64,000 nt of DNA from Planctomycetota bacterium (GCA_963205185.1 CAUJHZ010000007.1:62001-126000), one strand, 5' to 3'. Positions 1,155 to 6,149 are shown, numbered from the stretch's first letter. Numbers and translations: made by a program. The notes: generated by a model from the letters alone, not told the origin.

Positions 1155-1922
1155 ATGAAGCAGTCCCTGACGAGGCAGATCTCCGACTACGCCACGACCT
1201 GCGTCTTTTTGGCGCTGCTGGCGTACTTCCTGATCCAGCCGGTTGAGCCCAACTGGCCCGAAACTTCGCCACCGCTCATTGCCGCCGAGGCGCTGCCGCG
1301 CGGCCCGTTGCGGACGGGAGCGCTTCTCACCGCGCCGCCGCAGGCGCTCATCAACGGCTTCGTGCGCGACTGCAACGACTGCCACGCGCTCATGAAGCCG
1401 CCCGCCGAAGCCGCACGCCGCCTCACCCAGCACACCCATCTCGTGCTCGACCACGGCATGAACGATCGCTGCTTCAACTGCCACGCGCGCGAAAACCGCA
1501 ACCGGCTCGCCCTGCGCGGCAGCGAGACCGTCGGCTTCGATCAGGTCGAGCTGCTCTGCGCCCAGTGCCACGGCCCGACGTTTCGCGACTGGGAGCGCGG
1601 CGTGCACGGCAAATCGCTGGGCTCGTGGATCATCGGCAGTGCTGCACGGATCCGGCTGACGTGCGTGCAGTGCCACGACCCGCACGCCCCGCGCTACGCG
1701 CCCATGCAGCCGCTGCCGGCGCCTCACACGCTGCGCATGGGCCCGCAGGATCCGCGTGGCGTTCACGGCCGCGAGAGCGAGGAGAACCCGCTCAGGCGCT
1801 ATCCGTACGAGGAAGACTGGCCCTACGAGCCGGTGCGCATCGGCGTGGAGGAAGAGCCCGGCCCATATGAGTCGGATTCGGCGCCGGAAAAGTCGCCCGC
1901 CCACGGAGAGGATGAGCACTGA
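1155..1922 (+). CDS. Membrane-anchored tetraheme cytochrome c
   Basis: Periplasmic electron carrier of 255 residues tethered by one N-terminal membrane segment (about residues 12-33). Four CXXCH heme sites start at C73 (CNDCH), C106 (CFNCH), C135 (CAQCH) and C170 (CVQCH); the tail is acidic and proline-rich. First gene of a four-gene operon; its TGA overlaps the next ATG by one base (TGATG). By position it should carry electrons between the Fe-S/NrfD quinol module and the octaheme protein, as NrfB does in the Nrf system, though NrfB is pentaheme. Start chosen as the ATG (MKQSLT) just before the membrane segment; a GTG lies one codon upstream and no strong ribosome site is visible. Confidence 0.85.
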   Translation: MKQSLTRQISDYATTCVFLALLAYFLIQPVEPNWPETSPPLIAAEALPRGPLRTGALLTAPPQALINGFVRDCNDCHALMKPPAEAARRLTQHTHLVLDHGMNDRCFNCHARENRNRLALRGSETVGFDQVELLCAQCHGPTFRDWERGVHGKSLGSWIIGSAARIRLTCVQCHDPHAPRYAPMQPLPAPHTLRMGPQDPRGVHGRESEENPLRRYPYEEDWPYEPVRIGVEEEPGPYESDSAPEKSPAHGEDEH

Positions 1923-2974
1923 TGCGCATCTTCGATTCATCTCAGTCGAAGTGTTCACACGGCGAGTGTTCATCCGCCTGCTCCGGTCCGGGGCCGCACC
2001 GCCTCGGCAGCACGCGCCGCAGTTTCCTTCGCAAGGGGGCCGCGGCGATCGGCGGCATGGCGGCGCTCGTCGGGGCCCTGAGCCCGCTTCGCGAACTCGA
2101 TGAAAGCGACCTCGGCTCCGTCGAGAAGTTCATCCAGAAGCACTACAAGGAGATGGACGGCGAGGAGATGCGCCAGGCTCTGGAGCGCATTTCCCGCGAG
2201 GTCGAGAAACGCTACGACCTGCGCCCCGACATCCGCGATGTGCGCCCGATGGACGGCGTTGAGTTCGTCTACGCGCTGAATCTCTCGCGGTGCATCGGGT
2301 GCCGCAAGTGCGTGTACGCGTGCGTGGAGGAGAACAGCCAGAGTCGCGAACCGGAGATTCAGTACATCCGCGTGGTCGAGATGCCGCGCGGCACGCTGGA
2401 CATCGAAAAAGGCAACCACCACTACGACCGGCCGACCGTGCCCGACAGCGAGCACTACTACATGCCGATCCAGTGCCACCAGTGCGCCAAGCCGCCGTGC
2501 GTGAAGGTGTGCCCGGTGGGGGCGACGTGGCAGGAGCCTGATGGCATCACCGTGATCGATTACGACTGGTGCATCGGCTGCAGGTACTGCGAAGCGGCGT
2601 GCCCGTACTGGGCGCGACGGTTCAACTTCGCCGAGCCGAAGATCCCCAAAGAAGACATCAACCCGCGCATGAGTTACCTCTCCAACCGGCCGCGCCACAA
2701 GGGCGTCATGGAGAAGTGCCACTTCTGTCTGCACCGCACCCGCGTGGGCGAACTGCCCGCCTGCCTGGAAGTGTGCCCGACAGGCGCGCGCAAGTTCGGC
2801 AACGTCCTCGACCCCAGGAGCGAAGTCTCGGAGATTCTCAAGACCAAGCGCGTGTTCGTTCTCAAGGAAGAGGCGGGAACGCTGCCTCGCTTCTTTTACT
2901 ACTTCGACGAGCGCCATCCGCGCAGCGACGGCGATCGCGAGGCGGCCGCGCCTGGCCGGGAGGCGACCGCATGA
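1922..2974 (+). CDS. Tat-exported 4x[4Fe-4S] ferredoxin-like electron-transfer subunit (NrfC/HybA type)
   Basis: Iron-sulfur subunit of 350 residues that relays electrons between a quinol-reactive membrane partner and periplasmic cytochromes. A twin-arginine motif TRRSFLRKG (residues 31-39) precedes a hydrophobic stretch to about 56, indicating folded export. Four cysteine clusters are visible: C124/127/130/134, C185/188/193/197, C217/220/223/227 and C266/269/281/285, the full set for four [4Fe-4S] clusters. The N terminus before the Tat motif is long and has three extra cysteines, so a later start is possible. It overlaps the NrfD-like gene by ATGA, implying translational coupling and a complex. 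Confidence 0.9.
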   Translation: MRIFDSSQSKCSHGECSSACSGPGPHRLGSTRRSFLRKGAAAIGGMAALVGALSPLRELDESDLGSVEKFIQKHYKEMDGEEMRQALERISREVEKRYDLRPDIRDVRPMDGVEFVYALNLSRCIGCRKCVYACVEENSQSREPEIQYIRVVEMPRGTLDIEKGNHHYDRPTVPDSEHYYMPIQCHQCAKPPCVKVCPVGATWQEPDGITVIDYDWCIGCRYCEAACPYWARRFNFAEPKIPKEDINPRMSYLSNRPRHKGVMEKCHFCLHRTRVGELPACLEVCPTGARKFGNVLDPRSEVSEILKTKRVFVLKEEAGTLPRFFYYFDERHPRSDGDREAAAPGREATA

Positions 2975-4254
2975 GAGACTACGCCGTCTTTCTCTGGCGA
3001 TGCTTCCGGCTGAGTTTCGTCGGCGACTGGCGCTACGGCGCCTGGATGCTCACGCTCACGGCGATCGCCCTGCTCGGGCTCAACGCCTATTGCCGGCAAC
3101 TCGTCTTCGGCCTGGCCACGACCGGCATGACCGACCAGGTGTCGTGGGGGCTGTACATCGCCAACTTCACGTTCCTCGTGGGCATGGCGGCAGCCGCGGT
3201 CATGCTCGTCATCCCCGTGTACATCTACCGCAACAAGGAACTGCACGATCTGGTCATCTTCGGCGAACTTGCGGCCGTCTCGTTCATCATCATGTGCCTG
3301 CTTTTCGTGACGGTGGATCTCGGCCGGCCGGACCGCATGCACCACCTCTTCCTGCGCTTCAACTTCCCGCTGTCCATGCTGACGTGGGACGTGATCGTCC
3401 TCAACGGCTATCTGCTGCTCAACCTGCACATCTGCGGTTATCTCATCTACTGCGCGTATCGCAAGCGCGAGCCGCGCAAAGCGCTGTTCGTCGTGCCGTT
3501 TGTGCTCATTGCGATCGTCTGGGCGGTGAGCATTCACACGGTTACGGCATTTCTCTACGTGGGCCTTGGCGCCCGGCCGTTCTGGAACAGCGCCATCATC
3601 GCGCCGCGATTTCTCGCGTCGGCGTTCGCCGCCGGGCCGGCGTTCATCGTTCTGGCCCTGCAGGTGATCCGGAGATTCACCGACTACGACGTGCCGTCCA
3701 AAGCGCTCATGACGCTGCGGCAGATCATCCTCGTGGCGCTGACCATCAACGTCTTCCTGCTGATGAGCGAAGTCTTCACCGAGTTCTACGCCGACACGGC
3801 CCACAGCGCTTCGACGCACTACCTCTTCTTTGGCATCGGCGAAAACCGCGCGCTGGTGCCGTGGATCTGGACGTCCCTGGGGATGACGGCGGCAGCGCTG
3901 CTCATTCTCTACCTGCCCCTGGCGCGCAGCCTGCGCTATCTCAACATTGCGTGCGTTCTCATCATCATCGGCGTCTGGATCGAAAAGGGCATGGGGCTGA
4001 TCGTCCCCGCGTTCATCCCGACACCGATCGGCGAGATCGTCGAATACCGGCCGACCATCAACGAGATCCTCGTCTGCCTGGGCATCTGGGCCGCGGGGAT
4101 ACTTCTGTTCACCATTTCGGTTCGAATTACCATTCCGGTTCTTTCCGGTCGTCTCACCATCGATCACCCGTACGCGACCGAGCCGGATACGGAAACAGAA
4201 TCGAACGGATCGCCACGCGCGACAGCACTCGCATTCGAAAGGAGCACGTCGTGA
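2971..4254 (+). CDS. NrfD/PsrC-family quinol-interacting membrane subunit
   Basis: Polytopic inner-membrane protein of 427 residues with about eight to ten hydrophobic segments, matching the NrfD/PsrC/HybB family that exchanges electrons between quinones and an Fe-S partner. The conserved first-helix region (GMTDQVSWGLYIANFTF) and the long central loop with DLGRPDR are typical. The ATG overlaps the preceding stop by four bases, and its TGA is shared with the GTG of the next gene. It should anchor the Fe-S subunit and connect the quinone pool to the multiheme proteins. The C terminus is hydrophilic and Ser/Thr-rich. Confidence 0.9.
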   Translation: MRDYAVFLWRCFRLSFVGDWRYGAWMLTLTAIALLGLNAYCRQLVFGLATTGMTDQVSWGLYIANFTFLVGMAAAAVMLVIPVYIYRNKELHDLVIFGELAAVSFIIMCLLFVTVDLGRPDRMHHLFLRFNFPLSMLTWDVIVLNGYLLLNLHICGYLIYCAYRKREPRKALFVVPFVLIAIVWAVSIHTVTAFLYVGLGARPFWNSAIIAPRFLASAFAAGPAFIVLALQVIRRFTDYDVPSKALMTLRQIILVALTINVFLLMSEVFTEFYADTAHSASTHYLFFGIGENRALVPWIWTSLGMTAAALLILYLPLARSLRYLNIACVLIIIGVWIEKGMGLIVPAFIPTPIGEIVEYRPTINEILVCLGIWAAGILLFTISVRITIPVLSGRLTIDHPYATEPDTETESNGSPRATALAFERSTS

Positions 4255-5702
4255 CACGGTTCATGCCGTCTGTAATTGGAACTCTGGCTCTGGCGATCAG
4301 CGCGAGCGCGGCGTGGGGCCAGGCGTTTGGCCTGCCTGAACTGAGCACCGAGTCGCGCGCCTGCATCGACTGCCACAAGAAAGAGAGCACCGCGCTCTAC
4401 CAGCAGTGGGGCGACAGCAAGCACTTCCGCGGCAACGTCGGCTGCTTCGAGTGCCACGCCGCGGATAAGACCGACCCCGACGCCATGGAGCACGAAGGCC
4501 AATGGATAGCCGTGCTCGTGACTCCGCGAGACTGCTCGCGCTGCCATAGCAAAGAGGTGGAGGAGTTTCAGGGCAGCCACCACGCCAAGGGCGCGCGCAT
4601 ACTCGGCTCACTCGACAATCGCCTGGCGGAGATCGTCGAGGGCAACAGCGCCTTTGTGACGCCGGCATTCCCGCACGGCAACAGCGCCGCGGCGGTCAGC
4701 GGCTGCTGGCAATGCCACGGCTCAGAGGTCAAGGTGCTCGACGGCGGCAAACTCGACCCGGCCACCTGGCCCAACACCGGCATCGGCCGCATCAACCCCG
4801 ACGGTTCCGAAGGCTCGTGCGCCGCGTGTCACAGCCGGCACTCCTTCTCCGCCGCCCAGGCCCGCCACCCGGACACCTGCGGCAAGTGCCACATGGGCCC
4901 CGATCACCCGCAGAAGGAAATCTACGAAGAGTCCAAGCACGGCATCGCGTTTTTTGCCAACATCGACGAGATGAACCTCGACGCCGAGAAGTGGATCGTC
5001 GGCGAGGACTACTTCAAGGCCCCGACCTGCGCCACCTGCCACATGAGCGCGACCAAGGACCAGGATGTGACGCACGACATCGGCCTGCGCATCAGTTGGA
5101 ACAACCGGCCCGTACTCTCCGTGCGTCCTGAGGTATCCGACGCCAAGATGAACCTGCCCGCGCAGCACATCAACTGGGAGACGCGCCGGGCCAGCATGCA
5201 GAACGTCTGCCTCAACTGCCACAATCAGAACTGGGTGGACAACTTCTACGTGCAGTACGATGCGCTGATCGAGTTGTACAACGAGAAATACGCCAAGCCC
5301 GGCGAGGCGCTGTACAACCTCGCCAAGCCGCTGCTTCGCGCCGAGACCTTCTCGAACAAGGTCGATTTCATCTGGTACGAACTGTGGCACCACGAAGGCC
5401 GCCGCGCCCGCCACGGCGCATCGATGATGGGGCCGGACTACACGCACTGGCACGGCACCTACGAGGTCGCCAAGCACTGGTACTCCGAATACATTCCCGA
5501 GCTTGAGGAACTCATCGAGCAGGGCCGGGCATCAGGCGATCCGGAGAAGCAGAAGGTCGCCGAGGCGCTCGCCGCCAAGCTCGAAGAAGTCCTCAACAGC
5601 GCCGACCACCGCTGGTACCTGGGCAAGATGGATCCGGAGGAGGCGGCGCGCCGCAAGGCGGCCGCAGAGGAGTTCCAGAAGCGCTACGAACAGAAGAAGT
5701 GA
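4251..5702 (+). CDS. Octaheme cytochrome c of the hydroxylamine oxidoreductase (HAO) family
   Basis: Periplasmic octaheme protein of 483 residues with a signal peptide (about residues 1-24, cleavage near AWGQA). Eight CXXCH sites start at C38, C65, C95, C152, C190, C210, C260 and C320. The CGKCHMGPDHPQ segment (210-221) and the C-terminal MMGPDYTHWHG (392-402) are HAO-family signatures; the Asp-His of GPDH (218-219) is where that family places its catalytic pair. Family members either oxidise hydroxylamine or hydrazine through a Tyr-crosslinked P460 heme, or, without the crosslink, reduce nitrite. Which applies is unresolved, though Tyr397 sits at a plausible crosslink position. The GTG start has AAAGGAG six bases upstream (4238-4244). 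Confidence 0.87.
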   Translation: MTRFMPSVIGTLALAISASAAWGQAFGLPELSTESRACIDCHKKESTALYQQWGDSKHFRGNVGCFECHAADKTDPDAMEHEGQWIAVLVTPRDCSRCHSKEVEEFQGSHHAKGARILGSLDNRLAEIVEGNSAFVTPAFPHGNSAAAVSGCWQCHGSEVKVLDGGKLDPATWPNTGIGRINPDGSEGSCAACHSRHSFSAAQARHPDTCGKCHMGPDHPQKEIYEESKHGIAFFANIDEMNLDAEKWIVGEDYFKAPTCATCHMSATKDQDVTHDIGLRISWNNRPVLSVRPEVSDAKMNLPAQHINWETRRASMQNVCLNCHNQNWVDNFYVQYDALIELYNEKYAKPGEALYNLAKPLLRAETFSNKVDFIWYELWHHEGRRARHGASMMGPDYTHWHGTYEVAKHWYSEYIPELEELIEQGRASGDPEKQKVAEALAAKLEEVLNSADHRWYLGKMDPEEAARRKAAAEEFQKRYEQKK

Positions 5703-5711
5703 CGGCAGAGA

Positions 5712-6149
5712 ATGGAGCGACGACTCACTGAAGCAGATGGCCGCATCGCGCTGCGCGATCACATCGTGGGGCGGGCCATGCAGGCGCGCCTGCGCTACGG
5801 GTTGTACATCGATACCGAGGCGATCATGCGCATACTCGATGACCGGCAGGTGACGCGCTACCCCTGCGGCCTGCGCTATGACGCCGCCGGGCTCGAGCCC
5901 GGCGAATTCGCGCACGCACAGCCGCTGGGCGACCGCCCGGCTGACGGCTACTGCCTCTTCATCCACCCGGCGCTGGAGCAGCAGGCCGACCTCCTGCCGC
6001 TGGTGATCGCCTATCACCTGGTGACGATCAACTACGGCGAGATCGCCACCAGCGACGAAGCCGAACTCTTCGGCGCGACTCTGCTTGGCCTGGAGGTCGA
6101 AGAGTACTACGAGGCTCTGTGCGAGATAGCGGATCACCTCTCGCAGTGA
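5712..6149 (+). CDS. Conserved hypothetical protein next to the multiheme operon
   Basis: A 145-residue soluble protein, mixed alpha/beta in appearance, without signal peptide, membrane segment, or metal-binding cysteine pairs. I do not recognise the family. It begins 9 nt after the octaheme gene on the same strand, so it is probably co-transcribed, and could be an accessory factor or simply the operon's last gene. The ribosome site is weak. The 173 nt after it (6150-6322) show no gene. Confidence 0.6.
   Translation: MERRLTEADGRIALRDHIVGRAMQARLRYGLYIDTEAIMRILDDRQVTRYPCGLRYDAAGLEPGEFAHAQPLGDRPADGYCLFIHPALEQQADLLPLVIAYHLVTINYGEIATSDEAELFGATLLGLEVEEYYEALCEIADHLSQ

Follow-up and report, generated by a model that had tools for sequence, protein, structure and literature searches.

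What reaction is carried out by an octaheme cytochrome of the HAO family when it is encoded together with a quinone-linked membrane module is the question raised by a locus at positions 1155-5702 (+ strand) of a 64,000-nucleotide stretch of Planctomycetota DNA (GCA_963205185.1 CAUJHZ010000007.1:62001-126000), which we refer to in its full length as the window. Proteins of the HAO family span 65 phyla and, outside the nitrogen-cycling clade, their function is mostly unknown (PMC9213671). An earlier description made from the nucleotide sequence with no database searches (here termed the sequence-only reading) had presented the locus as an Nrf-like quinol module with an octaheme catalytic subunit, and had left the direction of the reaction open. 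We consider it likely that the product of the operon is a respiratory quinol:nitrite oxidoreductase, probably an ammonifying one, that is served by a module of the DsrO/DsrP (DsrOP) type.

The locus consists of four genes, each of which overlaps the next end to start (TGATG at 1920-1924, ATGA at 2971-2974 and GTGA at 4251-4254). The four open reading frames (ORFs), their three overlaps, their coordinates and their heme counts were all as the sequence-only reading had given them, though it had missed a fifth conserved gene that follows (5712-6149). The features are:

1155..1922, + strand: tetraheme cytochrome c of 255 amino acids, with four CxxCH motifs and a hydrophobic anchor at the N terminus
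1922..2974, + strand: 4x[4Fe-4S] protein exported by twin-arginine translocation (Tat), 350 amino acids, with the twin-arginine motif RRSFLRKG and four groups of Fe-S cysteines
2971..4254, + strand: integral membrane subunit of the NrfD superfamily, 427 amino acids (PF03916, 139 bits)
4251..5702, + strand: octaheme HAO-family cytochrome c with a GTG start, 483 amino acids, with eight CxxCH and no CxxCK motifs
5712..6149, + strand: fifth gene, of no known family, 145 amino acids, starting 10 bp past the octaheme stop codon

A scan of our genome collection gave 235 relatives. The best 80 of these 235 were taken for locus counts, residue counts were made on 81 octaheme sequences, and the window's own genome was searched family by family. 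The 80 relatives come from Planctomycetota, Verrucomicrobiota, Hydrogenedentota, Omnitrophota, Lentisphaerota and other groups. Since the order of the four genes is intact in 64 of the 80 loci (63 called by script and L011, in which the tetraheme ORF had been called too long), the arrangement is not a product of chance. A tetraheme homologue occupies the same place in 64 of the 80, and the 4-bp overlap at the Fe-S/NrfD junction recurs in 51 of the 63 script-called intact loci. Five more loci are cut by a contig end or fall one gene call short (L018, L027, L028, L033 and L038), and in L079 the module lies 3.5 kb from the octaheme gene. Ten of the 80 have none of the three module genes above our thresholds; in some cases the contig is short (L008, L023 and L073). 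Neighborhood matches were scored on all ORFs, and GC-rich loci carry long reverse-strand ORFs that mask real genes. In a quick tree the octahemes of the operon type form one clade of 59 rows, with a Shimodaira-Hasegawa-like approximate likelihood ratio test (SH-aLRT) value of 99.

The identity of the module departs from what had been claimed. The membrane subunit (2971-4254) scores 413 bits against the NCBIfam equivalog model for DsrP, above the cut-off of 350, and 20 bits against the equivalog for NrfD, for which the cut-off is 348. For the Fe-S protein (1922-2974) the best of all NCBIfam models is DsrO, at 175 bits, yet under the cut-off of 200, while NrfC gives 104 bits (cut-off 378). Because the membrane subunit passes the DsrP cut-off and reaches only 20 bits with NrfD, and the Fe-S protein is nearest to DsrO, the module is, as judged from its sequences, of the DsrO/DsrP type and not of the NrfC/NrfD type that the label Nrf-like had implied. 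The tetraheme protein matches PF14522 with 25 bits and the NapC/NirT family (PF03264) with 16 bits, under the cut-off of 24. We propose that this cytochrome links the Fe-S subunit to the octaheme enzyme, and that the DsrP-type subunit provides a putative site of quinol binding. DsrMKJOP itself carries DsrM, DsrK and the triheme DsrJ, whereas the operon neighbors here are the tetraheme and octaheme cytochromes and the fifth gene.

We also considered a module that is specific to the octaheme enzyme, and rejected it. In a sample of Desulfobacterota, which covers a wider set of related octahemes, the same three-gene module adjoins octaheme, 11-heme or 16-heme cytochromes, or stands alone. Because its partners vary in this way, the module looks like a general adapter from quinone to periplasm. 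Individual Desulfobacterota loci pair the tetraheme-FeS-DsrP module with an 11-heme cytochrome of 797 amino acids (L188) and with a 16-heme cytochrome of 741 amino acids (L179).

The octaheme protein matches PF13447 with 84 bits, and its best match in the PDB is Ignicoccus 4qo5 (E 8.6e-49; profile 2.5e-64), with anammox HAO and Nitrosomonas europaea HAO (the latter at 1.7e-17) among the further matches. Profile comparison with anammox hydrazine dehydrogenase (HDH) and HAO gave 100% probability at E 2.9e-41, while the score against the NCBIfam equivalog for HDH is 56 bits (cut-off 900). The protein has eight hemes in the order seen in HAO and an Asp-His pair distal to heme 4, the catalytic heme, which we place at C152-WQ-CH. 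In the Ignicoccus hospitalis protein, whose function is unknown, the Asp-His pair is Asp-Val and a Phe is aligned opposite Trp400. An AlphaFold model of the octaheme protein, made with 26 close homologues, was poor (predicted local distance difference test, pLDDT, 56) and supports no claim made here.

Asp218, His219, Met392 and Trp400 are invariant in the 81 octaheme sequences, while position 397 is Tyr in 73 of these close homologues, Ile in seven and Phe in one. The sequence-only reading had put forward Tyr397 as the candidate for the Tyr that is cross-linked to the catalytic heme in HAO and HDH. MAFFT does set this residue in the Tyr column of HDH, and the HH alignment to anammox HDH/HAO ends before it; by alignment, either Tyr397 or Trp400 may hold the place of the HDH Tyr, but as residue 397 is changed to Ile in operon-bearing relatives, Tyr397 is unlikely to be an essential cross-link residue. 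Met392 and Trp400 match epsilonHao, in which Trp takes the place of the cross-link Tyr and a Met lies eight residues upstream (PMC8940962), an arrangement that Met392 and Trp400 reproduce in 81 of 81 sequences. EpsilonHao (HaoCA, a reverse hydroxylamine:ubiquinone redox module or HURM) is thus like the present system in its HAO-family octaheme and in both of these residues, but its partner is HaoC, a tetraheme of the NapC type, whereas here the tetraheme protein is below the NapC/NirT cut-off and is joined by a DsrOP-like pair. According to work cited in PMC9213671, members of the epsilonHao family convert nitrite to ammonium in vitro. The window's genome also encodes a second octaheme HAO-family protein, of 417 amino acids (G000:C67, L143 9139-10392, - strand), which has the epsilonHao-like motif KHGAFMGGADFVQWHGNY, adjoins a DUF4932 protein and has no module nearby.

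The genes that surround the operon point to its substrate. In 24 of the 80 loci (23 by neighborhood scoring and a truncated copy in L019) NapA is a neighbor of the operon, against a chance expectation of about 0.3 by our own estimate, from 20-kb windows and genomes of 5-6 Mb. In 15 loci NapA lies within ~1.1 kb downstream, on the same strand, together with NapG and NapH in the loci examined, and in L005, L024 and L036 it is above the NCBIfam cut-off. On the Desulfobacterota side, an octaheme-tetraheme-FeS-NrfD cluster adjoins a tetraheme gene and a NapA-like gene in L124, L177 and L178. A second family appears in three loci without the module (L058, L069 and L151): here the octaheme gene lies near a divergent Nar/Nxr-like type II molybdoenzyme complex, for which the name nitrate reductase is itself putative, as related enzymes use other substrates. 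Because two distinct families of the nitrate reductase type adjoin the octaheme gene, its substrate would appear to be nitrite. The window's genome has such a type II complex on contig 41 (G000:C41, L197 4343-12316), behind a sigma-54 response regulator, comprising an alpha subunit of 1192 amino acids, a beta subunit, a gamma subunit with cytochrome c and EB_dh domains, and a Nitrate_red_del chaperone; relative to the complexes of L058, L069 and L151, alpha is 51% identical (L199) and beta 61-63%.

The same neighbors bear on direction. Homology of the octaheme protein to HAO and HDH, including the Asp-His pair, would fit a reaction in reverse, in which the octaheme protein oxidizes hydroxylamine, or some other reduced form of nitrogen, and the module hands the electrons on to the quinone pool, and complexes of the NrfD family do include both quinone oxidizers and quinone reducers (PMC8076601). 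We nevertheless regard oxidation as very improbable, with a cross-link Tyr not conserved (Ile or Phe at position 397 in 8 of 81) and the operon linked to nitrate reductases. Since the operon has nitrate reductases as neighbors in many genomes, and a cross-link Tyr is not conserved, the direction that had been left open is probably reductive.

From gene content, order and neighborhood we infer an electron path, a substrate, a product and a means of energy conservation for the proposed nitrite reductase. The DsrP-like subunit would oxidize menaquinol, and the octaheme protein would receive the electrons by way of the clusters of the DsrO-like Fe-S protein and then the tetraheme cytochrome. In the octaheme protein nitrite would be reduced at heme 4, which would have no cross-link and would carry Asp218 and His219 in its distal pocket, the product most likely being ammonium in a six-electron reduction. 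Nitrite may be supplied by NapA where it is present and otherwise by the Nar/Nxr-like type II molybdoenzyme or the environment, the last two being the probable sources in the window's own genome. Such a pathway would parallel NrfABCD in its quinol oxidation by an NrfD-family protein, its Fe-S and multiheme relays and its multiheme catalytic cytochrome; the catalytic subunit of NrfABCD is, however, the pentaheme NrfA, whereas here it is an HAO-family octaheme without CxxCK, fed by a module that scores as DsrO/DsrP. In bacteria that lack NrfA the operon may stand in for it. A search of 48 operon genomes turned up NrfA in only 8 (E<1e-80), and it was not found above cut-off in the window's genome, where the sole PF02335 match (21.9 bits) falls inside the second octaheme protein.

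A locus of this kind has been described before. Thermosulfurimonas dismutans and Dissulfuribacter thermophilus carry, within an 11-gene cluster with napMADGH, a four-gene locus for a transmembrane multiheme HaoA-like cytochrome, an NrfD-family protein, a 4Fe-4S protein and a further cytochrome (PMC5276818, 2017). The gene kinds are those of the window and their order, as implied by the locus tags, is the same (cytochrome, Fe-S, NrfD family, HaoA-like multiheme), and the four-gene architecture is not new. That locus stands beside Nap, whereas the window's operon does not, though those of 24 of its 80 relatives do. Both thermophiles lack NrfA and convert 10 mM nitrate to ~9.9 mM ammonium, and nitrite reduction was proposed for the locus (PMC5276818). 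The sequence-only reading keeps its pairing of octaheme and quinone module, with nitrogen the likely element. It had named a characterized clade that already has this operon as grounds for refutation, and this applies in part: the T. dismutans-type locus has the same kinds of gene, although it was described by annotation and not by biochemistry. Octahemes of the HAO-like kind in Phycisphaerae have also been reported as putative octaheme nitrite reductase (PMC11266412, 2024). In the literature that we searched, which took in few subscription papers, we found no account of the spread of the operon, the DsrOP nature of its module, its repeated linkage to nitrate reductases or the fifth gene.

The affinities of the module allow for a different substrate. 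With DsrP and DsrO as its nearest named relatives, the complex might instead be a reductase of sulfite, tetrathionate or polysulfide, in which the module and the octaheme protein correspond to the MccACD sulfite reductase, a reading that we consider unlikely. MccA carries a non-standard long-spaced heme motif, whereas all eight heme motifs of the octaheme protein here are plain CxxCH. MccACD (SirA) does set a precedent for an octaheme cytochrome that receives its electrons from an Fe-S/NrfD-type pair (PMC8076601), a sulfur role has been proposed for HAO-family proteins of another Desulfobacterota clade (PMC9213671), and sulfur metabolism was left open as an alternative for the T. dismutans-type locus (PMC5276818). 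However, the operon differs from MccACD in its extra tetraheme subunit, the repeatedly conserved neighbors of its relatives are nitrate reductases, of two families, and no sulfur-pathway genes occur among the annotated neighbor clusters.

Nitrite could also have another fate, the octaheme protein yielding nitric oxide (NO) or hydroxylamine from it, or detoxifying nitrite, NO or hydroxylamine, instead of taking part in respiratory ammonification. In the account that PMC10732223 gives of Ferousi et al. 2021, an anammox octaheme without the cross-link is reported to convert nitrite to NO, and a route by way of free hydroxylamine was put forward for Nautilia (PMC3701875), with Hcp as its second step in the account given in PMC8940962. 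Hcp was not found in the window's genome, which therefore offers no known second step, and ammonium is the end product of T. dismutans and D. thermophilus, for which nitrite, N2 and N2O were undetected (PMC5276818). We accordingly hold these fates to be improbable.

Several observations weigh against a respiratory nitrite reductase. The window's genome lacks NapA at E<=1e-100 and NarG at E<=1e-50, making the source of nitrite there uncertain, and just 21 of 49 operon genomes searched have NapA or NarG, divergent type II enzymes not being counted. The three-gene module occurs without an octaheme partner in Desulfobacterota and so does not by itself fix the substrate. Reduction of sulfur compounds has been proposed for HAO-family proteins outside the nitrogen-cycling clade (PMC9213671). 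The T. dismutans-type locus is known by annotation in two thermophiles, and is likened to the window's by the kinds and order of its genes; for the octaheme clade as a whole, function is predicted from sequence.

If the operon does encode a nitrite reductase, many uncultured bacteria that are scored as having none would keep nitrogen as ammonium, nrfA-based surveys would put ammonification too low, and quinone modules of the DsrOP type would gain a new partner. The operon also reaches a genome (G287) that is of the anammox type, because it has a true hydrazine dehydrogenase (1233 bits). This genome carries the full four-gene operon (L137), with an octaheme that has Trp, not Tyr, at position 397, and the same contig holds a further octaheme gene of a kind common to the other anammox-type genomes.

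Homologues of the fifth gene are present in 53 of 81 loci, mostly directly 3' of the octaheme gene and otherwise after the Nap genes. The protein, which is probably cytoplasmic, matched no Pfam family above cut-off and no PDB sequence. AlphaFold predicts a small alpha/beta protein with a pLDDT of 96, and a comparison of this model with PDB folds gave no match at E<=0.001. The top match, the peptidase selecase, was not significant (E 0.31) and was not used. A tentative and rather doubtful extension of our proposal would be that an ion-translocating, and so energy-conserving, DsrOP/octaheme quinol:nitrite complex, together with this fifth protein as a dedicated component of new fold, is widespread and is the main route of nitrite ammonification in many Planctomycetota, Verrucomicrobiota and relatives that lack NrfA, and has crossed from phylum to phylum, an anammox bacterium being among its recipients.

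Other genes recur near the operon. An outer-membrane porin of the Alginate_exp family is found in 21 loci, and genes for ResB/CcsA-type cytochrome c maturation in some (neighbor clusters 13 and 18); both would fit a system of exported cytochromes. The window also encodes, a short way upstream of the operon, a prepilin-like protein (61-930) that looks unrelated. Elsewhere in the window's genome, two similar molybdoenzymes of 748 amino acids (G000:C64 and G000:C34; L190 and L191), each followed by an Fe-S protein, are nearest to NasC at 795 and 801 bits, under the cut-off of 1100, and may be either assimilatory nitrate reductases or formate dehydrogenases.

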